A stretch of 64,000 bases of DNA, taken from contig NZ_CP035494.1 of NCBI RefSeq assembly GCF_004135285.1, positions 1,922,001-1,986,000 of the forward strand. The letters run 5' to 3'. Positions 9,855 through 64,000 of the stretch are shown piece after piece. The stretch comes from Microbacterium protaetiae. GTDB lineage: Bacteria > Actinomycetota > Actinomycetes > Actinomycetales > Microbacteriaceae. Position 1 is the stretch's first letter; the number at the start of each line of letters is the position of its first letter. Under the pieces are notes generated by a model. The model was not told where the DNA came from, did no database searches, and saw only the letters and a program-made list of their open reading frames with translations. A program made the translations under genes and the position numbers.

Positions 9855-10618
9855 GCGAGGCGCCCGCGGTCACTCTCGGCGTGAGCCTGAAGCTGTACCT
9901 CGACATTCCGCGCACTGTCCGGTGGGCGCAGCAGATCGCCGAGATCGCGCGACGGCACAGCGCCGTGCGATCTGGAGCTGTGCGACTGATCGCGCTGCCG
10001 TCGTTGCCCGCACTCGAAGCCACCCGCGTGGCGCTCGAGGGGAGCGGTGTGCAGCTGGGCGCGCAGGATCTGTTCTGGGAAGACCGCGGGGCATACACCG
10101 GCGGCGTGAGTGGCGCCGATCTGCGCCAGGCAGGCTGCGCGTATGTCGAGATCGGCCACGCGGAGCGCAGGACGGTGTTCGGTGAGGACGACGCGATCAT
10201 CGGCCGCAAACTGTCCGCCGCCGTGCGCAACGGACTCATTCCGATCCTCTGCGTCGGTGAGGCGACGCCGGAAGAGGACGCAGCCGAGGCATGCCTCGCA
10301 CAACTCGCAGCGGCGCTCGATGGGCTGCCGGGCGGGACGACCGCCGATGACGTCATCGTCGCGTACGAGCCGGTCTGGGCGATCGGCGCGACGGACCCCG
10401 CATCCGCCGATCGTGTGACGGACGTGACAAACGCGTTGCGCGGGGCATTGGAGGCCGACGAACGGGTGGGCGCAGCATCCCTCATCTACGGCGGCAGTGC
10501 GCAGGCCGGTCTGCTGCGTCGCCTCGGTCGGGGTGTCGACGGGCTCTTCCTCGGGCGGTTCGCGCATGACCCGGAGCGGCTCGAGGAAGTCGTCGCTGAA
10601 GCGGCGGCGATACTCTGA
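9851..10618 (+). CDS. Triose-phosphate-isomerase family protein, probable erythrulose-phosphate isomerase (EryH/LerI type)
   Basis: 255-residue TIM barrel. The three catalytic positions are visible: Lys14 in SLKLY, His103 in IGHAERR and Glu173 in YEPVWAIG, and the phosphate loop YGGSAQ is near the end. The first motif differs from the canonical NxK of glycolytic TIM, fitting a specialised paralogue. In erythritol and L-threitol catabolism such paralogues isomerise L-erythrulose 1-phosphate to D-erythrulose 4-phosphate, the substrate of the RpiB-like enzyme encoded just upstream with an ATGA overlap. The pairing of these two isomerases is the strongest sign of a tetritol pathway here. Confidence 0.85.
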
Positions 10619-55564: not shown

Positions 55565-57994
55565 GTGACGCGACATCCCTCGTCGACGTACCGCCTGCAG
55601 ATCCGGCAGACGTTCGACCTGGATGCCGCAGCCGAGCTGACCGGCTACCTGTGCGATCTCGGGGTCGGGTGGGCGTATCTGTCGCCGCTGCTTCAGGCCA
55701 CGAGCGGGTCGGACCACGGGTACGACGTGGTCGATGTGTCGCGCGTGGATCCCGCGCGCGGCGGCGCCGCAGGTCTGGCGCGGTTCGCCGCGGCCGCGCA
55801 CGAGGCGGGGCTCGGCATTCTCGTCGACATCGTGCCGAACCACCTGGGGGTGGCAAGGCCCACGCAGAACCCGTGGTGGTGGGACGTCTTGCGTCGCGGG
55901 CGAGCCTCGCGCTATGCCGAGGCGTTCGACATCGACGCGGAGTTCGGCGGCGGACGGGTGCGGTTGCCCGTGCTCGGCGACCCGCACGACGCCGCTGCCG
56001 TGCGAGTGGATGCCGCGGCCGGCGTTGCGCGGTACGGCGATCATGTACTGCCCTTGGCCGACGGCTCGGCCGATGACGGTGCCGATGTCGCGACGGTGCT
56101 GGGCCGTCAGCACTGGGAACTCGTGTTCTGGCGCGACGAGGCCACGGCGCTGAATTATCGCCGCTTCTTCACGATCTCCAGCCTCGCGGCCGTGCGCGTC
56201 GAGGTGCCGTGGGTGTTCGATGCGCTGCACGCCAAGGTGCTGCGCTGGGTGCGCGAAGGCATGGTCGACGGTGTGCGCGTCGACCATCCCGACGGCCTGG
56301 CCGACCCCGGCGCCTACCTCGCGCGGTTGGCGCGGGCGCTGCGCGAGGCGCGTGCCGGCTCGGCACGTGCCGGCGCCGCTGACGCTGACGCTGACGCTGA
56401 CGCTGACGCCGACGCTGACGCTGACGCCGACGCCGACGCCGACGCCGACGCGTACATCGTCGTCGAGAAGATCCTCGAACACGACGAGACCCTGCCCGAC
56501 TGGTGGCAGACCGACGGCACCACCGGCTACGACGCGCTCGCCGAGATCGATCGGGTGCTCGTCGATCCTGCCGGCGAAGCACCGCTCACCGACCTCGATG
56601 CCCGGCTGCGCGCCGAGACCGGTCTTCGTGCGGTGTCATGGCCACAGCTGGTGCACGATGCGAAACGGTCGGCAGCTGACACCGTGCTGCGCGCCGAGGT
56701 GCGCCGGCTCGTGCGATGCCTGCCCGAGCCGATGCGCACGCCCGATGCCGACGACGCGCTCGCCGAACTGCTCGCGTGCTTTCCGGTGTACCGTACCTAT
56801 CTGCCCGCCGGGCGGCGGATTCTCGCTGAGGCGGTGGCTGCGGCATCCCTTCGTCGTCCCGATCTCGCGACCACTCTCGCCCTTATCGAGCCGCTGCTCG
56901 CCGACAGGGCGAACGAGCTCGCTCGTCGGTTCGAGCAGACGACCGGGGCGGTGATGGCCAAGGGCGTCGAAGACGCGGCGTTCTACCGCTTCACGCGTCT
57001 GAGTTCGCTGACCGAGGTGGGCGGTGATCCCTCGGTGTTCGCACTGTCGGTGCCGGCTTTCCATCGCGCGCAGCAGCGGCGCCAGGCCTCGTGGCCGCAC
57101 ACGATGACGGCGCTGTCGACCCACGACACCAAACGCAGCGAGGATGTGCGGGCGCGGCTGGCTGTGTTGGCCGAGCTGCCCGGGGAGTGGTCCGCGACGC
57201 TCGATCGGCTGCGTGCGACGGCCTCGACCGGGCATGGACCGTTCGACGCGCTGCTCTGGCAGGCGATCGTCGGCAGCTGGCCGGCGACGGCCGAGCGGCT
57301 GCACGCCTATGCCGAAAAGGCCGCGCGCGAAGCGGGCGAGCGCACGAGTTGGAGCCAGGTGGATGCCGCGTTTGAAGCCCGTGTGCACGCGGTGGTCGAC
57401 GCAGCCTTCGACGATGCTCCCGCGGGTGCGCGGGCGATCGTCGAGGCGTTCGTGGCGCGCATCGCCGGTCCTGGGTGGTCGAATGCGTTGGCGGCGAAGC
57501 TGCTGCAGCTGGCTGGCCCCGGCATCCCCGACCTCTATCAAGGCTCCGAGCTGTGGGACCTCTCGCTGGTTGACCCCGACAACCGTCGACCGGTCGATTT
57601 CGGAGCGCGTCGCAGGCTGCTCGCCCGGATCGACGACGGGTGGATGCCGCCGGTCGACGCGTCGGGAGCAGCAAAGCTGCTCGTCGTCTCACGCGCCCTG
57701 CGGGCGCGGCGTGATCGCCCCGATCTGTTCACGCAGTATCGGCCGGCGACGGTGGTGGGCCGGGCAGCCGAGCACGCCGTCGCCTTCGATCGCGGGGGTG
57801 CTGTTGCGGTGACGACCCGGCTGCCGGTGGGCCTTGCCGCGCGCGGCGGGTGGGCAGACACGGCGCTGCTGCGCCGGGGCGGGGCGGCCGTCGATGTCTT
57901 CACGGGCCGCAGGTTCGAGCCGGGCGAGGTGCCGCTGGGTGTGCTGCTGGCCGACTATCCGGTCGCGCTTCTGCTGCCGGACGCCCGTGAATGA
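55565..57994 (+). CDS. treY: Malto-oligosyltrehalose synthase TreY
   Basis: 809 residues, at the upper end for TreY. It starts RHPSSTYRLQIRQTFDLDAA, with VPNHLGVARPTQNPWWWDVL, the catalytic VDGVRVDHPDGLADP and VVEKIL, then STHDTKRSEDVRARLAVL and GIPDLYQGSELWDLSLVDPD. It rearranges the reducing end of maltodextrin to an alpha,alpha-1,1 bond; TreZ then releases trehalose. A 12-unit Asp-Ala microsatellite is inserted just before the VVEKIL motif. No treZ follows, although it is usually adjacent; the sigma factor comes next. It has a GTG start 3 bp after glgX. Confidence 0.93.
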   Translation: MTRHPSSTYRLQIRQTFDLDAAAELTGYLCDLGVGWAYLSPLLQATSGSDHGYDVVDVSRVDPARGGAAGLARFAAAAHEAGLGILVDIVPNHLGVARPTQNPWWWDVLRRGRASRYAEAFDIDAEFGGGRVRLPVLGDPHDAAAVRVDAAAGVARYGDHVLPLADGSADDGADVATVLGRQHWELVFWRDEATALNYRRFFTISSLAAVRVEVPWVFDALHAKVLRWVREGMVDGVRVDHPDGLADPGAYLARLARALREARAGSARAGAADADADADADADADADADADADADAYIVVEKILEHDETLPDWWQTDGTTGYDALAEIDRVLVDPAGEAPLTDLDARLRAETGLRAVSWPQLVHDAKRSAADTVLRAEVRRLVRCLPEPMRTPDADDALAELLACFPVYRTYLPAGRRILAEAVAAASLRRPDLATTLALIEPLLADRANELARRFEQTTGAVMAKGVEDAAFYRFTRLSSLTEVGGDPSVFALSVPAFHRAQQRRQASWPHTMTALSTHDTKRSEDVRARLAVLAELPGEWSATLDRLRATASTGHGPFDALLWQAIVGSWPATAERLHAYAEKAAREAGERTSWSQVDAAFEARVHAVVDAAFDDAPAGARAIVEAFVARIAGPGWSNALAAKLLQLAGPGIPDLYQGSELWDLSLVDPDNRRPVDFGARRRLLARIDDGWMPPVDASGAAKLLVVSRALRARRDRPDLFTQYRPATVVGRAAEHAVAFDRGGAVAVTTRLPVGLAARGGWADTALLRRGGAAVDVFTGRRFEPGEVPLGVLLADYPVALLLPDARE
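56381..56452 (+). repeat. treY: 6-bp microsatellite inside treY encoding 12 Asp-Ala pairs
   Basis: Twelve GACGCT/GACGCC/GACGCG units, with mixed third bases, encode a run of alternating Asp and Ala directly before YIVVEKIL. The 6-bp unit keeps frame, so length changes would not break the enzyme. Confidence 0.95.
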
Positions 57995-58071
57995 CCTGCA
58001 GAAACTCGTCGATTGTCATGTATCAGGCCGACGGGTACCGTCCTCTCGCAGATGTGGAGACAATTGTCTAT

Positions 58072-58692
58072 GTGACATCCCTTGATGAGCCGGCCGCTGC
58101 CGCCGCGCCCGCCGACGGCGAGCCGACGCGCTGGGAGCGCGCGGGCGCGCTGTTCGCTGCCTGGCGCGACGGCGACACCCGTGCGATGGACGAGTTGGTG
58201 CGGCTCATGACCCCGACGCTCTGGCACGTCGTGCGGGCGTACGGGGTCGATGCCGCACTGGCCGAAGACGTCGTGCAGACCACCTGGCTCACCCTGGTGC
58301 GCCGGCACGAGACCATCACCGAACCGCGGGCGGTGTCGGGGTGGCTGACCACGACCGCGCGACGCGAGGCCTGGCGCGCGGGCAAGTCGCAGCGGCGGGC
58401 CGACGTCACCGAGACCGAGGAGCTCGAACCCAAGCTGCCGACGGCCGAGTCGGCCGAGGCATCCGCCGCCCGCAACGATGAGGCGCAGCGCCTGTGGAGC
58501 GCTGTCGCACAGCTGGCCGAGCGGTGCCGGCGCCTGCTGCGGGTCGTCGCGTTCGATGACCGCCCCGACTACGCCCGCATCGCGAAGGACCTGTCGATGC
58601 CGGTCGGTTCGATCGGCCCGACCCGACAGCGCTGCCTGGCCAAGCTTCGGTCGCTGCTCGGCGACGAGGGGGCGATGGCTCATGGCGCCTGA
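58072..58692 (+). CDS. ECF-like RNA polymerase sigma factor
   Basis: About 206 residues from the GTG at 58072 (the ATG at 58018 would add 18). Region 2: ALFAAWRDGDTRAMDELVRL, VRAYGVDAALAEDVVQTTWL and PRAVSGWLTTTARREAWRAG. Region 4: LAERCRRLLRVVAFDDRPDY, ARIAKDLSMPVGSIGPTRQR. It would direct polymerase to a small regulon, probably the CHAT and protease genes downstream. The palindrome AGACAATTGTCT (58058-58069) lies directly before the GTG and may be a control site. The start is uncertain. It overlaps the next gene by 11 bp. Confidence 0.88.
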   Translation: MTSLDEPAAAAAPADGEPTRWERAGALFAAWRDGDTRAMDELVRLMTPTLWHVVRAYGVDAALAEDVVQTTWLTLVRRHETITEPRAVSGWLTTTARREAWRAGKSQRRADVTETEELEPKLPTAESAEASAARNDEAQRLWSAVAQLAERCRRLLRVVAFDDRPDYARIAKDLSMPVGSIGPTRQRCLAKLRSLLGDEGAMAHGA

Positions 58693-59146
58693 GGATGTCG
58701 CCGCCGACGCGGCGCTGTTCGCACGATTGCGCGCGGCGTGGGAAGAGCGCGACCCCGTGCCGGCCGGCCTCATCGATCGGATGGTGGCCGCCGTGGCCGT
58801 CGAGGACCTCACCCGCGAGTACGCGCTGCTCACGCTGGTCGAGGGCCAGTACGCCGAGGTGCGCGGCGAAAGCGACACGGCGACGCTGCAGTTCAGCGAC
58901 GGCGAGACGAGCGTGCTGCTGCACATCGCCGCCACCGAGGGCGGCGATCACCGCATCGACGGGTGGGTGGATGCCGCGGTCAGCGAGGTTCGCCTCGTGC
59001 AGGGTGAGCGCGAGAAGAAGACTGAGGTCGGTGAGCACGGCCGATTCGCGTTCGACGGGGTGCGCGCGGGGCTGGCGCGGGTGCGGCTGACGGTCACCCG
59101 CGAGGGCGAGTCGACCGAGTTCCAGACGCCGCAGTTCGAAGTCTGA
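58682..59146 (+). CDS. Partner protein of the sigma factor, unknown function
   Basis: 154 residues, soluble. An N-terminal helical part (LFARLRAAWEERDPVPAGLI, DRMVAAVAVEDLTREYALLT) is followed by a beta-rich part (TATLQFSDGETSVLLHIAAT, VRAGLARVRLTVTREGESTE). The translational overlap with the sigma gene suggests it acts with it, possibly as an anti-sigma or substrate-sensing factor; it has no membrane segment. A perfect 12-bp hairpin terminator follows. No family was recognised with confidence. Confidence 0.7.
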   Translation: MAPEDVAADAALFARLRAAWEERDPVPAGLIDRMVAAVAVEDLTREYALLTLVEGQYAEVRGESDTATLQFSDGETSVLLHIAATEGGDHRIDGWVDAAVSEVRLVQGEREKKTEVGEHGRFAFDGVRAGLARVRLTVTREGESTEFQTPQFEV

Positions 59147-59147
59147 G

Positions 59148-59177
59148 CGGTCGGGGCGGTGCGGGCCGCCCCGACCG
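59148..59177. terminator. Strong bidirectional terminator
   Basis: CGGTCGGGGCGG (59148-59159) pairs perfectly with CCGCCCCGACCG (59166-59177) around a 6-nt loop. It separates the sigma operon from the opposite-strand peptide gene. Confidence 0.88.
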
Positions 59178-59179
59178 GG

Positions 59180-59287
59180 TCATTCTTCGTCTTCGACGGT
59201 GAGGGCGTTGACGGCGAGTTGCGGTGACAGTGCGGCCAAGACGGCAGTGACTGCCGGTGGGACGCCGTTTGTGCTTGTGAAGGGCAT
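59180..59287 (-). CDS. Small 35-residue peptide gene between sigma and CHAT genes
   Basis: The frame is shorter than most gene finders accept. The start ATG at 59287 is preceded by AAGGAA with a 5-base spacing, a good ribosome site. The peptide starts MPFTSTNGVPPAV, continues as a hydrophobic helix-like middle (LAALSPQLAVNAL) and ends TVEDEE. It ends beside the 59148 terminator and is divergent from the CHAT gene, leaving a 107-bp shared control region. The first residues PFTSTN resemble the PFMSTN and NPYTST repeats in the S8 protease of this cassette. It could be a signal, regulator or protease substrate. Confidence 0.5.
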   Translation of the reverse strand: MPFTSTNGVPPAVTAVLAALSPQLAVNALTVEDEE

Positions 59288-59394
59288 GATGGTTCCTTCG
59301 TTTTTGGAGAGTGGACTCCATAACAGTTCCACCACAATGGCCGCCGCGCAATGCCTACCAAGCGAGGTGACAGCGGTTGCGCGAAGATGGGTGA

Positions 59395-61866
59395 GTGACC
59401 CCGACCGCCGCCGAGTTGCACCGTCATGCTGTGGATCAGAGCATCCGCGGGCGTTTCGCTGGTGCGGAGCGCACTCTTCAGCGCGCTGAGAAGCTGTCGG
59501 ACGACGCCGATGTACGGGCTCGCATCAGCGGCACGCGAGCGTTCATCTTGCTGCGCACGGGAAAGCCCGCGCAAGCGGAGGCACTCTGTCGGGCAGCGCT
59601 GGACGGCACCGGGGTAAGCGACACGACGCGCGCGGTATTGCTCGGGCAGCTAGGGGCAATCGCTCATGGCTCGGGTCGACTCCGCGAGGCGGAACGCCAC
59701 CTCACGGCGGCTATCAACAGTCTCGCTACTGACCGTGTTGCGGAGGGCCGGGTTCGGATGAATCGCAGTCTCCACAGGCTTCAACTGCGCAACGCAGATG
59801 GTGCTGCGGAAGATCTGGAACGAGCGATCCGAATCTTCCACGATGTCGGGCTGGCGGTAGATGAAGCACAAGCGAAACATAACTGGGCCTACGTCGCCCT
59901 CCTGCGTGGTGACCTCGTCGCCGCTCTCCGCGGAATGCAAGAGGCTCGACCGCTTGCTGCCGCGTCCCCGGCGGCTCGCGCTGTGGGCGATGTGGACCGG
60001 GCTGAGGTCATGCGCGATGCCGGGCTTACGAGGGAGGCCGAGCGAATACTGGCGTCTGCCGCGGCGTTGTTCGGTTCACAGCGGATGCCGCAGTTTCGTG
60101 CTGAGGCGGAACTGCAGCTGGCGAATTCTCAACTGCTGCATGACCCTCCCCGAGCCGCACGCACGGCCTCCGCTGCCGAACGTCGATTCACCACGCTGGA
60201 AAGCACAGTGTGGGCGACGCGGGCAGCGGCAGTTCGTATGCAGGCAGAACTTGCGGGCGGTGGAGTGCAACGCGGTGGTGGCCGGCGGCCTGATCCGAAG
60301 TACGTGCCTTCCGGCGACGACGTCGAGAAGACGGCGGCCACTCTCGTTCGCGCGGGTCTAACCAGCGACGCGGCGGCGTTGCGTCTGAGCCTCGCGATCT
60401 GGCGCGCGCGGCACGCGCAGGTACCGAGCAGCGGCACCACGCGAGTGCCGAGGTCAGCACCGATCCGTGTTCAGCTGCTCGCTCATGAGGCACGCGTGGC
60501 TCGTGCCCTTGCGCGTGGGCAGCAGGCTCAGGCCCGGCGGGCGGCTGCGGCCGGCCTTGATCTGCTCGCGAACTGGTGTGAGTCGTTCGGAAGTCTTGAC
60601 CTGCAGACATCTGTCGCCATGCATGGCAGCGACTTGGTGTTCGCCGGGCTTGCCAGCGCCGTGGAGTCGGGCAAGCCGACGCTGGTCTTCGAATGGTCCG
60701 AGCGAGCGCGACAGCTCAGCCAGCAGGTCGTGCCGCTGCGGCCACCACCAGATCCGGGCTTGGCCGCCGAGCTCGCTGAGCTCAGGATGTTGCGCGCTGA
60801 CGACCCGAACTGGGCGACCAGCACTCGGGGGATCGCGTTGCAGGAAAGTGTTCGTGCACGGCAGTGGACGCAGACAGCTGCGGGGTCTGTCCGTCGGCGG
60901 CTGAGCCTGGATGAGCTTGCAGACGAGCTCGATGGGCACACCGCGCTCGTCTCCTACGTGTACTCCGGTGACGCGCTCGTCTGTCTCGTTGTCACCCGCG
61001 ATTTTCGTCGAATCGTTCCACTTCCGGAAGCCGCCGACGCCCGCGCGCTACTACCGGGATTGCGTGCGGATCTTGACATGGTCGCCACCGTGCGCACGGG
61101 CCCGCTCGCCCAGGTCGTGCTGCGCTCGCTGGAAGCCCGACTCGCGGACCTGTCTGCTCTGCTGCTGGATGCTCCGCTGCGCTATGCCGGCGATAGACGT
61201 GTCGTGGTCACGGCGCCGGGCATGCTTGCCGGGATTCCGTGGGGGATGCTGCCTGGCATGCGCCGGCGTGCCTTCACTCTGGCGCCGTCGGCCACACGGT
61301 GGGCTGATGTGCGACGTGGCGCCTCCTCGCTGCGCACCGCGGGATTCGCCGTGGGTCCACGTGTCATGCGGGGCCGTGAGGAGGTCCAGACGGCCGCATC
61401 CGCGTGGTCCACGCCGACAGTCCTCGAGCGGGATGCCGCATCCGTCGACGCGGTCACCTCCCTTGCCGCGCACGTTGACGTGCTGCACATCGCCGCACAC
61501 GGTCAGCATGCGACCGATAACGCGCTATTCTCCGGTCTGGAACTGGCCGATGGCACACTGTTCGGGTACGACATCGACCGCATTCCCGATGTGCCGGCGG
61601 TTGTCGTGCTCTCTGCGTGCGAGGGTGGCCGCTCCTCCGTGCGGTGGGGCGAGGAGGCGATCGGGATGGCCCGCATCTGGTTGTCTGCCGGTGCGAGGTG
61701 CGTAGTCGCGACACCGGTGGTCGTCGCAGACGACGATGCCTGCGAGTTGCTCGGTGCTCTGCACGGCGAGCTGACCGCCGGCAGCGATCCAGCAGAGGCG
61801 CTCGCTGCGGCATCCACCCGAACGGGGCTTGTGACACCGTTCCAAGTGCACGGGGCAGGATTCTGA
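59395..61866 (+). CDS. TPR-CHAT domain protein (caspase-like cysteine protease)
   Basis: 823 residues. The N-terminal 330 or so residues are TPR-like helical repeats (RFAGAERTLQRAEKL, GKPAQAEALCRAAL, GSGRLREAERHLTAAI). The C-terminal CHAT domain carries the catalytic dyad: His702 in HIAAHGQ and Cys742 in VVLSACEGG; LFSGLELADG is a further conserved segment. CHAT proteases in other systems, such as the Csx29 subunit of type III-E CRISPR, cut partner proteins when activated. The GTG at 59395 is used. The S8 protease gene follows, so it may activate or be activated by that enzyme. Cytosolic; no signal. Confidence 0.9.
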   Translation: MTPTAAELHRHAVDQSIRGRFAGAERTLQRAEKLSDDADVRARISGTRAFILLRTGKPAQAEALCRAALDGTGVSDTTRAVLLGQLGAIAHGSGRLREAERHLTAAINSLATDRVAEGRVRMNRSLHRLQLRNADGAAEDLERAIRIFHDVGLAVDEAQAKHNWAYVALLRGDLVAALRGMQEARPLAAASPAARAVGDVDRAEVMRDAGLTREAERILASAAALFGSQRMPQFRAEAELQLANSQLLHDPPRAARTASAAERRFTTLESTVWATRAAAVRMQAELAGGGVQRGGGRRPDPKYVPSGDDVEKTAATLVRAGLTSDAAALRLSLAIWRARHAQVPSSGTTRVPRSAPIRVQLLAHEARVARALARGQQAQARRAAAAGLDLLANWCESFGSLDLQTSVAMHGSDLVFAGLASAVESGKPTLVFEWSERARQLSQQVVPLRPPPDPGLAAELAELRMLRADDPNWATSTRGIALQESVRARQWTQTAAGSVRRRLSLDELADELDGHTALVSYVYSGDALVCLVVTRDFRRIVPLPEAADARALLPGLRADLDMVATVRTGPLAQVVLRSLEARLADLSALLLDAPLRYAGDRRVVVTAPGMLAGIPWGMLPGMRRRAFTLAPSATRWADVRRGASSLRTAGFAVGPRVMRGREEVQTAASAWSTPTVLERDAASVDAVTSLAAHVDVLHIAAHGQHATDNALFSGLELADGTLFGYDIDRIPDVPAVVVLSACEGGRSSVRWGEEAIGMARIWLSAGARCVVATPVVVADDDACELLGALHGELTAGSDPAEALAAASTRTGLVTPFQVHGAGF

Positions 61867-62014
61867 AGAAGGACGTATCACCGCCGGATGAGACGGCTCT
61901 CACACTGTGGGACGTTCGCAGCGTCGGGAGATCATAAGACTGGGGAGTCGATCTCGATGCCGGTGCGCTGCGGCGGAGATGTACGGACTGGGGACGCCAT
62001 CGCCGAGCCCAGCG

Positions 62015-62047
62015 GGAAGGATGTCGGGAGAGCCGACGTCCTTCCCG
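62015..62047 (+). terminator. Hairpin between CHAT and S8 protease genes
   Basis: GGGAAGGATGTCGG (62015-62028) pairs with CCGACGTCCTTCCC (62034-62047) with one G-T pair and a 5-nt loop. Without a T-run, it may be a partial terminator, so the protease may also have its own promoter after it. Confidence 0.65.
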
Positions 62048-62108
62048 TGTGCTCGGAGCGATAAAGTTCGAGATCACAGTGCACAAGCGCAAAGGCAAGG
62101 AGGCCACC

Positions 62109-63680
62109 ATGGCGGTGCAGGGAAGCGGCGACGAACCGGTTGAGCGGGCGTCGGGCGGAGCGAGCTGGCAGGAGCGCGAGAACAACATCCGCCCGCTTGG
62201 GGCGGTTCTGCAGCCGCCCGCGGGGGAGGGAGACGATCACTTCTACCCGACGGTGTACATTCCCGATCGCCTTCTTGTGGCTGCAGACCGGGATGCCGCA
62301 GAGGTGGCGCGATCGCTCAACGCTGCATTCGAGCGTGCGGGGTGGAGATTCGAACCTATTCCTGTCGTGACGATCGATCGCCGCGCGTCGCACAGCGACG
62401 TCGACCTGGCTTCTGCCACACGCCTGCAGATCATGGGTGAAGGCGCCGCGGCGGGTTCGAACCCCGACGGGTGGGCCATCCTAGACGCCGCACGTCGCGC
62501 CGGCGTCGATCTCGAGGGCGTGGGTCTCGACCACCTGCTAACAGTGGCGCCGGTCGGAATGAACCCGTTCATGTCCACCAACCCATACGGGTCGACAAAT
62601 CCGTATGGGTCGACCAATCCCTACACCTCAACGAATCCGTACACATCGACGAGCCCGTATGGATCGACTAATCCCGCGGCCGCCGGTCTCGGTGGGTACG
62701 CCCTGCCCGGCTTCGGCGGTCGACAGGTCATCTCGTGGATCGGCGAGGCGCCGGCGCGCGACCGTGAACGCACGAGGCGTCGTCCCGTGGTGATGATCGT
62801 CGACACGGGCTGTGCACCGCACCCATGGTTCGACGGCGGTGTGGTCGACACACACGTGACGCTCGACGGAGAGCCGATCGGCATCGCCGACCCGGCCACG
62901 ACGCCCGATCTGCACCCCGACCTCGTGGGACCTCTCGACGGCGAGATCGACCCGGTCTCGGGCCACGGCACCTTCCTGGCAGGCATCGTGCACCAGGTGT
63001 GCCCGGATGCCGACATCCTCTCCGTGCGTATCGCCGACAGTCTGGGACGGGTCATCGAGTCCGACCTGATGAAGGTGGTCGAGCAGATCGCGGAGCTGGT
63101 GCGCCGTCACGCCCGTGGTGAACAGGGCGGCCGTCGCATCGACGTGCTCAACCTGTCGCTGGGTTATTACCACGAGAAGCCCGAGGACGAGATCTACAGC
63201 AACGGGCTGCGTAAGGCGCTGCTGAAGATCGCGCGGTACGGCACGACGATCGTGTGCAGTGCCGGCAACGATGCGACCGATCGGCCGATGTTCCCGGCCG
63301 CATTCCCGAAGGGAGAGCACGGCGCGCCGCTTCTCGCAGTGGGGGCGAAGAACCCGAGCGGCAAGAGTGTTGCGCTGTTCAGCAATACCGCGCCGTGGGT
63401 CGACGTGTATGCGTGTGGGGTTTCGGTGCTTTCGACATTCCCGAGCTTCGACGGGGGAGCGCAGGCGGTCACGCGCCGTGATGCGCACGGCGAGCGTCGC
63501 GAGTCACTCGACCCCGACGATTTCACGGGGGGCTTCGCCGTGTGGAGCGGAACCTCGTTCGCCGCCCCGCTGATCTCCGGGAGGATCGCGGCGCACTTCA
63601 ACGGATGGGACGACGACGCGGATGCCGCGGCCCGCATCGCCCGCGCGGCCGAGGTGGTCGAGAAGCTGCAGGCCGAGTAG
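62109..63680 (+). CDS. Cytosolic S8 (subtilisin-like) serine protease with NPYGST repeats
   Basis: 523 residues, no signal peptide. AAGGAGG five bases before the ATG at 62109 sets the start. After an N-terminal domain of about 150 residues, a linker has hexapeptide repeats (NPFMST, NPYGST twice, NPYTST twice, SPYGST). The S8 triad is Asp232 (VMIVDTGC), His286 (VSGHGTFLAG) and Ser483 (SGTSFAAPLISG). Most S8 enzymes are secreted; this one is predicted to stay inside and could be activated by the CHAT protein or by loss of the linker. A perfect 12-bp hairpin follows its stop. Confidence 0.9.
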   Translation: MAVQGSGDEPVERASGGASWQERENNIRPLGAVLQPPAGEGDDHFYPTVYIPDRLLVAADRDAAEVARSLNAAFERAGWRFEPIPVVTIDRRASHSDVDLASATRLQIMGEGAAAGSNPDGWAILDAARRAGVDLEGVGLDHLLTVAPVGMNPFMSTNPYGSTNPYGSTNPYTSTNPYTSTSPYGSTNPAAAGLGGYALPGFGGRQVISWIGEAPARDRERTRRRPVVMIVDTGCAPHPWFDGGVVDTHVTLDGEPIGIADPATTPDLHPDLVGPLDGEIDPVSGHGTFLAGIVHQVCPDADILSVRIADSLGRVIESDLMKVVEQIAELVRRHARGEQGGRRIDVLNLSLGYYHEKPEDEIYSNGLRKALLKIARYGTTIVCSAGNDATDRPMFPAAFPKGEHGAPLLAVGAKNPSGKSVALFSNTAPWVDVYACGVSVLSTFPSFDGGAQAVTRRDAHGERRESLDPDDFTGGFAVWSGTSFAAPLISGRIAAHFNGWDDDADAAARIARAAEVVEKLQAE

Positions 63681-63706
63681 CGGGGCCGGGCGTGCCCGGC
63701 CCCGCC
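63681..63706 (+). terminator. Terminator after the S8 protease gene
   Basis: GCGGGGCCGGGC (63681-63692) and GCCCGGCCCCGC (63695-63706) are perfectly complementary around GT, starting directly after the stop. Confidence 0.85.
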
Positions 63707-64000
63707 ACTGCGGCGGCCAGCCACGCGGCCTCTTCAGGTGCGTGCCCGGCCACCGTGGCGGCTTCATGTGAATTTGTCGGATGCACAGCACACCGTCGCC
63801 GGTTTGGTGTGCATCCGACGGTTTGATGTGGGCGCGCGCGCCGTGGCATCCCGAATCGCAGCCGCGCGGCGTTCGGTCGTCGCATATGGCCCCTGTATTG
63901 CGGTGGAGGGGGCCGTTTGTGACGACTGAGTGTGTGCTCACTCGAGGTGTCGGCATCGGGGAGTGCGACGCGACGCGAAACAAGGGTGCGAGGCCGTTTC
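63707..64000. other. Tail of window, no gene seen; one palindrome
   Basis: GTCGGATGCACA (63776-63787) and TGTGCATCCGAC (63808-63819) form a perfect 12-bp inverted repeat with a 20-nt loop. Short ORFs on both strands across this stretch lack ribosome sites and are not called. The unit at the end may continue beyond the window. Confidence 0.6.

Follow-up and report, generated by a model that had tools for sequence, protein, structure and literature searches.

What purpose do two proteases serve beside a sigma factor gene? The question is raised by a locus in a 64,000-nucleotide window of Microbacterium protaetiae (contig NZ_CP035494.1, bases 1922001-1986000 of a 3.79 Mb genome in a single contig), where genes for an extracytoplasmic function (ECF) sigma factor, a small partner protein, a protease with tetratricopeptide repeats and a CHAT domain (TPR-CHAT) and an S8 protease follow one another. 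The initial annotation took these genes, together with a small divergent peptide gene, for an undescribed two-protease system. We found that the genes of the sigma factor, the partner and the two proteases are real and form a conserved cassette whose members co-occur beyond chance, but the neighbourhood is already in print, given that section 3.3 of a review (PMC8999054) names carboxypeptidase, subtilase and CHAT proteins as neighbours of ECF54 sigma factors. In the window, the ECF sigma factor, the subtilase and the CHAT protein are all present, and it is from this neighbourhood that we call the cassette ECF54-type.

Among 150 genomes of the same family, CHAT and S8 matched the identical six genomes, and among 149 genomes of the same genus, each protease was found in 80. 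Thus, 79 of the 81 congeneric genomes with either protease have both, the exceptions being G181 (CHAT only) and G256 (79% complete, S8 only). Across 246 genomes of the class, 85 had a CHAT match at E up to 1e-15 and 24 an S8 match at E up to 1e-20, and in all 24 genomes with S8, the coordinates place it on the same contig as CHAT and within 6 kb of it; in the family and class searches, four to nine first-look candidates were scored per genome. The idea that the two proteases are a unit had been offered on the understanding that separate locations in related genomes would speak against it, and the pair was found to be co-located.

The arrangement was studied in 82 loci, comprising 80 retrieved neighbourhoods, a Tessaracoccus locus (L013) and the window; 40 of the retrieved loci come from the class and were hand-picked from the CHAT match list of 85 genomes, mostly among the stronger matches. 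Profile searches detected CHAT in all 82, S8 in 80, the partner in 75 and the sigma factor in 74, the corresponding numbers for S8, partner and sigma factor in the 40 class loci being 39, 33 and 32. In five loci of family f25 (L074, L075, L081, L084 and L086), the CHAT/S8 pair alone was detected. The sigma factor gene lies immediately upstream of the partner gene in 72 of 73 loci (the exception is L044); the two genes overlap in 40 cases, and the gap is no larger than 50 nt in 68. Fewer than 600 nt separate CHAT from S8 in 67 of the 80 loci. Most of the Microbacterium loci that were read have the order sigma-partner-S8-CHAT, the window, L014 and L015 have sigma-partner-CHAT-S8, the Tessaracoccus locus reads S8-sigma-partner-CHAT, and in further loci, S8-sigma-partner is divergent from CHAT. 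Since the order is scrambled while the membership is constant, the cassette appears to be a functional unit and not a mere inherited neighbourhood. One copy, in L047 (G239, 68% complete), is broken into several frames; it was excluded from the gene-order count and kept as single frames in the residue-conservation alignment. Both L047 and L058, which lies at a contig end, were excluded from the reference lists, and the reference sets A1, A2 and A3 hold 62 of 74, 39 of 80 and 39 of 78 listed entries.

Both proteases carry the catalytic residues that had been ascribed to them. The window CHAT protein matches PF12770 (7.2e-24), and the columns of His702 and Cys742, the dyad of a clan CD peptidase, numbered as they were initially, are invariant in 82 of 82 aligned rows. 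The S8 protein matches PF00082 (1.9e-19), each residue of its Asp252/His306/Ser503 triad (counted from the GTG at 62049) is present in 79 of 80 rows, and by eye it has no signal peptide. Its structure model (mean predicted local distance difference test score, pLDDT, 77.2; predicted template modelling score, pTM, 0.83; numbered from 62115) begins with an N-domain at 46-143 in the order beta-alpha-beta-beta-alpha-beta, which a disordered linker at 146-205 joins to the catalytic domain, and it matches unprocessed pro-subtilisins across both domains. We therefore predict a pro-subtilisin with a disordered repeat linker. It can be aligned with pro-subtilisin E and pro-Tk-subtilisin over the propeptide-like and catalytic domains, but it differs from them in its apparent lack of a signal peptide and in the roughly 60 disordered repeat residues at the processing junction. 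In Microbacterium and several other genera, this linker is made of short repeats, uniform within a species and different between species (for instance, NPYGST, NPFKG, NPFTRT, GMPYYA and SPYDSSH); in many more-distant loci, it is short and repeat-free. Such drift fits a bait or a cleavage region, a role that we infer. Given that the S8 architecture is zymogen-like, the initially suggested activation cascade from CHAT to S8 is plausible. Separately, the window CHAT gene was overlooked by a simple gene caller trained on the long frames of the retrieved loci that are rich in G and C at third codon positions, hinting at a foreign or relaxed composition.

The sigma factor matches Sigma70_r2 (1.3e-10) and the NCBIfam model sigma70-ECF (2.1e-19, 69.7 bits against a cut-off of 42.9), and the reported overlap of its gene with that of the partner holds. 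The profile of the partner matches 905 database proteins at E up to 1e-5, and the best 120 of these 905 are named "hypothetical" or "uncharacterized". Asp24, Pro25 and Pro27 are each kept in 72 of 75 rows, and the structure model (mean pLDDT 87.5, pTM 0.62) shows helices at residues 3-23 and 30-48, low confidence at 47-50 and 54-60, and an eight-stranded beta sandwich at 66-148 that, in structure comparison, resembles many unrelated sandwiches. CarboxypepD_reg, a non-catalytic domain, weakly matches 14 of 62 members of the partner family (E up to 0.01), the window protein falling below the cut-off (E 0.051), and because of these matches, we propose from sequence that the partner is probably what the ECF54 literature calls a "carboxypeptidase". 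A search of PDB sequences with the partner profile (E up to 10) returned nine rows, none named as a Csx30-like sigma inhibitor. Anti-sigma genes often adjoin their sigma gene, and the partner is a candidate anti-sigma factor.

A promoter-like signature of the form GTATCA-N15-17-CTC was found 5′ of the sigma factor or S8 gene in 54 of 82 loci, the search covering up to 300 nt upstream of either gene or its first 30 nt. Within the family, 37 of 41 loci have it (34 of the 37 from Microbacterium and 3 of the 4 from other genera), as do 17 of the 41 loci outside, whereas the means after Markov shuffling were 0.08 and 0.02 and the antisense strand gave 3 of 82. After TGTATCA, the spacer is 16 nt in 31 cases, 17 in 9 and 14 in 3, and in 17 loci, the signature lies 53 nt upstream of the chosen sigma start. 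As ECF factors commonly regulate themselves, the signature is most simply the sigma factor's own promoter; its position suggests self-regulation, and the initial proposal that the sigma factor drives the cassette is probably right. Over 20 whole genomes, TGTATCA-N15-17-CTC occurs at 89 sites, about 31 of them inside cassettes, compared with 62 for the reversed pattern. In L079, L080, L083, L088 and L092, a gene about 2 kb past CHAT, ATPase-like in carrying GxxGxGKT by eye, likewise has the signature in front of it.

The same signature recurs behind the CHAT gene. It lies within 130 nt of the CHAT stop in 33 of 37 Microbacterium loci, but in none of four loci from other genera of the family, in 2 of 41 class loci (L054 and L056, where a protein gene apparently follows it) and at 5 of 403 other gene ends. 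The roughly 150 nt that follow, counted in 35 loci with a looser form of the signature than the strict one giving 33 of 37, contain 143 G4 runs versus 25 C4 runs, with G exceeding C in every one of the 35. G runs are in excess by at least three in 71% of these stretches, whereas random windows reach this in 1.6% of cases and stretches behind other genes in 5.8%. In the 34 RNAs that were folded (L033, L054, L056 and L058 left out, L031 represented by its second signature), the G runs are unpaired more than in shuffles (mean 0.41 versus 0.28). Among 27 sequences, 8 of the 12 pairs of a terminal hairpin have changed on both sides; this alignment (A4) holds 27 of the 34, and the omission of the divergent L015, L020, L022, L025, L026, L034 and L048 favours the helix, the alignment of all 34 being poor. 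No common reading frame was apparent by eye in the post-CHAT stretches, and Rfam gave no match in window positions 57900-63999 (E up to 1) or in eight loci (gathering score). We thus have a candidate small non-coding RNA with a covarying end hairpin, and most of L014-L048 plus L053 combine the signature, the G-run-biased stretch and the hairpin. A 6C pairing idea for this RNA failed when tried.

Similar stretches exist away from the cassette. The window genome has a second G-run leader 5′ of a 182-amino-acid gene (L099:4671-5219, minus strand), with the motif at 2248340 on the minus strand, and L122, of the nearest relative, has by eye a look-alike pair of leader and gene. Of eight genomes from another family, f24 (6-11 Mb), five have the signature at the head of stretches that contain 5-12 G runs, frequently CACGGGGGA, the control sites being unread. 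In these loci (L118, L119, L162, L184 and L201), tandem CACGGGGGA-like units, accompanied by a hairpin, could form G-quadruplexes.

How might these parts work together? Our tentative answer, to which we give slightly less than an even chance, is that this is an ECF54-type cassette of regulated proteolysis in which the proteases would relieve the inhibition of the sigma factor by the partner, as in Craspase but without CRISPR, through cleavages that we infer by analogy. In PMC10028731, the TPR-CHAT protease of Craspase, Csx29, is shown to cleave a sigma inhibitor, and in type III-E (Csx29, Csx30 and CASP-sigma), as in our cassette, TPR-CHAT adjoins an ECF sigma factor and a further protein. The cassette differs in that its partner has 154 residues forming two helices and a sandwich, in the added S8 protease, in its CHAT protein, which with 11.4 bits against a cut-off of 300 falls outside the Csx29 family (NF041237), and in that no CRISPR gene (Cas7-11, array) is among its genes, the rest of the genome being unsearched for them. 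By this analogy, the partner, as the coupled neighbour of the sigma factor, would hold it through the two N-terminal helices; a signal sensed by the TPR part would switch on the CHAT protease, which would cut the floppy linker of the partner, the repeat linker of the S8 zymogen or both; the released S8 catalytic domain would complete the degradation of the partner; and the freed sigma factor would transcribe its own cassette and the RNA in a self-amplifying response. A more specific version, a CRISPR-free circuit of Craspase logic in which a two-helix inhibitor holds the sigma factor, the CHAT/subtilisin pair releases it and the G-run-rich RNA answers as part of the circuit, seems doubtful to us; the RNA might, for instance, act as a decoy that binds ribosomes or C-rich RNA, or be a ligand switching TPR-CHAT on or off.

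Several observations weigh against this picture. The window partner has no anti-sigma domain match in Pfam or NCBIfam at E up to 1, and none of 62 relatives matches an anti-sigma family when compared with Pfam at E up to 0.01. In the retrieved stretch, the partner is missing from seven of the 40 class loci and the sigma factor from eight (L058 and L069 are near contig ends), and L033 and L093 have CHAT without S8. The strict promoter signature is missing in 24 of the 41 loci outside the family, and in 18 further genomes, TGTATCA-N15-17-CTC has 49 sites against 60 for the reversed pattern; neither this count nor that over the 20 genomes shows a wider regulon. As for the RNA, within our sample, it is limited to one genus, the window copy is among the poorest in G (two G4 runs per 150 nt counted), and the alignment of all 34 RNAs yields a weak consensus helix (-4.6 kcal/mol, nine pairs, seven of them still covarying), because some loci bear a different hairpin.

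The published view of ECF54 is opposite to ours: section 3.3 of PMC8999054 proposes, without experiment and from the carboxypeptidase, subtilase and CHAT neighbours, that there is no anti-sigma factor and that the proteases degrade the sigma factor until a signal halts the degradation. Negative feedback could explain why a sigma factor would produce what destroys it, but the "carboxypeptidase" behind the proposal is, in our identification, most likely the partner, which in 14 of 62 members weakly matches a non-catalytic domain and which adjoins the sigma factor as anti-sigma genes often do, and we consider this view unlikely. We see still less reason to favour an anti-phage abortive system, in which infection would activate CHAT and S8 and kill the cell. 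The CHAT protein, over residues 694-760, does have its best PADLOC match in the model BovA (E 8.7e-05), S8 matches a PADLOC subtilase model (4.2e-08), and the presence of the cassette is patchy (80 of 149 genomes of one genus). BovA belongs to the Borvo defence system, however, which consists of a single gene, whereas four genes including a sigma factor are found here. Moreover, the flanking proteins are of kinds that return clade by clade (162 proteins, with clusters of 23, 22, 17 and 14) and look ordinary on sequence reading; 50 flank representatives match 21 PADLOC families, 20 of these with one member and one with two, a scattered pattern; and a sigma circuit that regulates itself points to a graded response. 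The defence role first suggested for this locus is thus not borne out and is decidedly improbable.

The candidate RNA, in turn, could be nothing but the end of the CHAT transcript with its terminator, given that the consensus fold retains the end hairpin alone and that the z-score of the minimum free energy is under -2 in just 20 of 34 RNAs. The fixed place of the signature behind CHAT, rare at other gene ends, the strand bias of the G runs in every stretch counted and the G-run stretches behind the same signature in f24 genomes (control sites unread) argue for more than that, and we think a mere transcript end quite unlikely. The 35-codon frame, for its part, has a fair ribosome site (GAAGGAACCATCATG), and a relation to S8 can be imagined in which the protease matures the peptide into a signal or inhibitor: its MPFTSTNG is similar to the L014 linker unit NPFTSTN and carries the PFTSTN of S8 linker repeats, and in L070, a small frame (10152-10253, minus strand) terminates in PKYKGG, as found in the linker of that locus. 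A small frame in L049 (3832-4047, plus strand) likewise terminates in a motif resembling its own linker (NPYDRTN). Overall, these linker-like ends are not above chance: of 79 loci, 25 share linker words with another of their own frames, compared with 12-25 in 20 shuffles, and the best tail scores of 38, 36 and 34 compare with best scores of 35-37 in six shuffles. As tblastn found no relative of the 35-mer in 81 other loci (best E 0.19), and as partner and CHAT lie 72 nt apart in L014 and 101 nt apart in L015 but 269 nt apart in the window (script-chosen starts), the peptide gene was dropped from the system, and with it the suggestion that its product is a signal, inhibitor or substrate, which finds no support; maturation of the peptide by S8 is barely credible.

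The coordinates are collected in the table below. The sigma start was moved from 58018 to a GTG, because 58018 sits on the promoter-like TGTATCA and the nearest relative (L014) shares GTG-ACA-TCC; the S8 start was moved to an ATG, because the Shine-Dalgarno sequence AAGGAGG precedes it. The hairpin behind the partner gene had been called a bidirectional terminator. It folds at -32.6 kcal/mol on the plus strand, where the terminator pattern is satisfied, so that this half stands; on the minus strand, the pattern is unmet, although the folding energy is -29.2 kcal/mol.

Table. Features of the cassette locus in the window (window positions).
Feature	Position	Strand	Basis
Promoter-like signature TGTATCA-N17-CTC, 5′ of sigma	58019..58046	+	Motif search
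Gene of the ECF-type sigma factor, starting at a GTG (its longest frame runs from 57991)	58072..58692	+	Pfam/NCBIfam matches
Partner gene, 154 amino acids (candidate anti-sigma), overlapping the sigma gene	58682..59146	+	Family profile, structure model
Strong hairpin, terminator-like on the plus strand	59148..59177	.	Folding, terminator pattern
35-codon frame, formerly proposed peptide gene, no relatives found in 81 other loci, excluded from the system	59183..59287	-	tblastn
TPR-CHAT protease gene (His702 and Cys742)	59395..61866	+	Pfam match, aligned dyad
Second promoter-like signature CGTATCA-N16-CTC, beginning 8 nt beyond the last base of the CHAT stop	61874..61900	+	Motif search
Predicted non-coding RNA whose GGGG loops lie at 61938-61949 and 61985-61998 and whose terminal hairpin spans 62014-62046	61902..62046	+	Prediction
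S8 protease gene, Shine-Dalgarno start (longest frame from 62049), propeptide-like N-domain and catalytic domain	62109..63680	+	
S8 linker of NPF/NPY-x-STN repeats joining pro-domain to catalytic domain, predicted disordered	62562..62675	+	

What is new here is the shared promoter signature, the post-CHAT RNA candidate and the predicted pro-subtilisin type of the S8 protease, whereas the gene neighbourhood itself is known. The cassette shares with ECF54 loci the ECF sigma factor, subtilase and CHAT genes, probably also the carboxypeptidase-type gene, and the proposal of proteolytic control, but section 3.3 of PMC8999054 names no promoter, RNA or zymogen linker and proposes that there is no anti-sigma factor. 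Among the matches listed in the open-access literature, there was nothing on this promoter, the post-CHAT RNA or a test of the mechanism. The novelty is limited in that the neighbourhood is known and the wiring is borrowed by analogy from Csx29, Csx30 and their sigma factor, a transfer that may hold, at a likelihood somewhat short of even. Because the partner is constant, the second protease looks like a zymogen, the promoter can be recognised and an RNA candidate is linked to the cassette, the control of ECF54 is open to direct tests. If our reading is true, CHAT proteases would control sigma factors outside CRISPR, and the post-CHAT RNA would be a first candidate output of such control.

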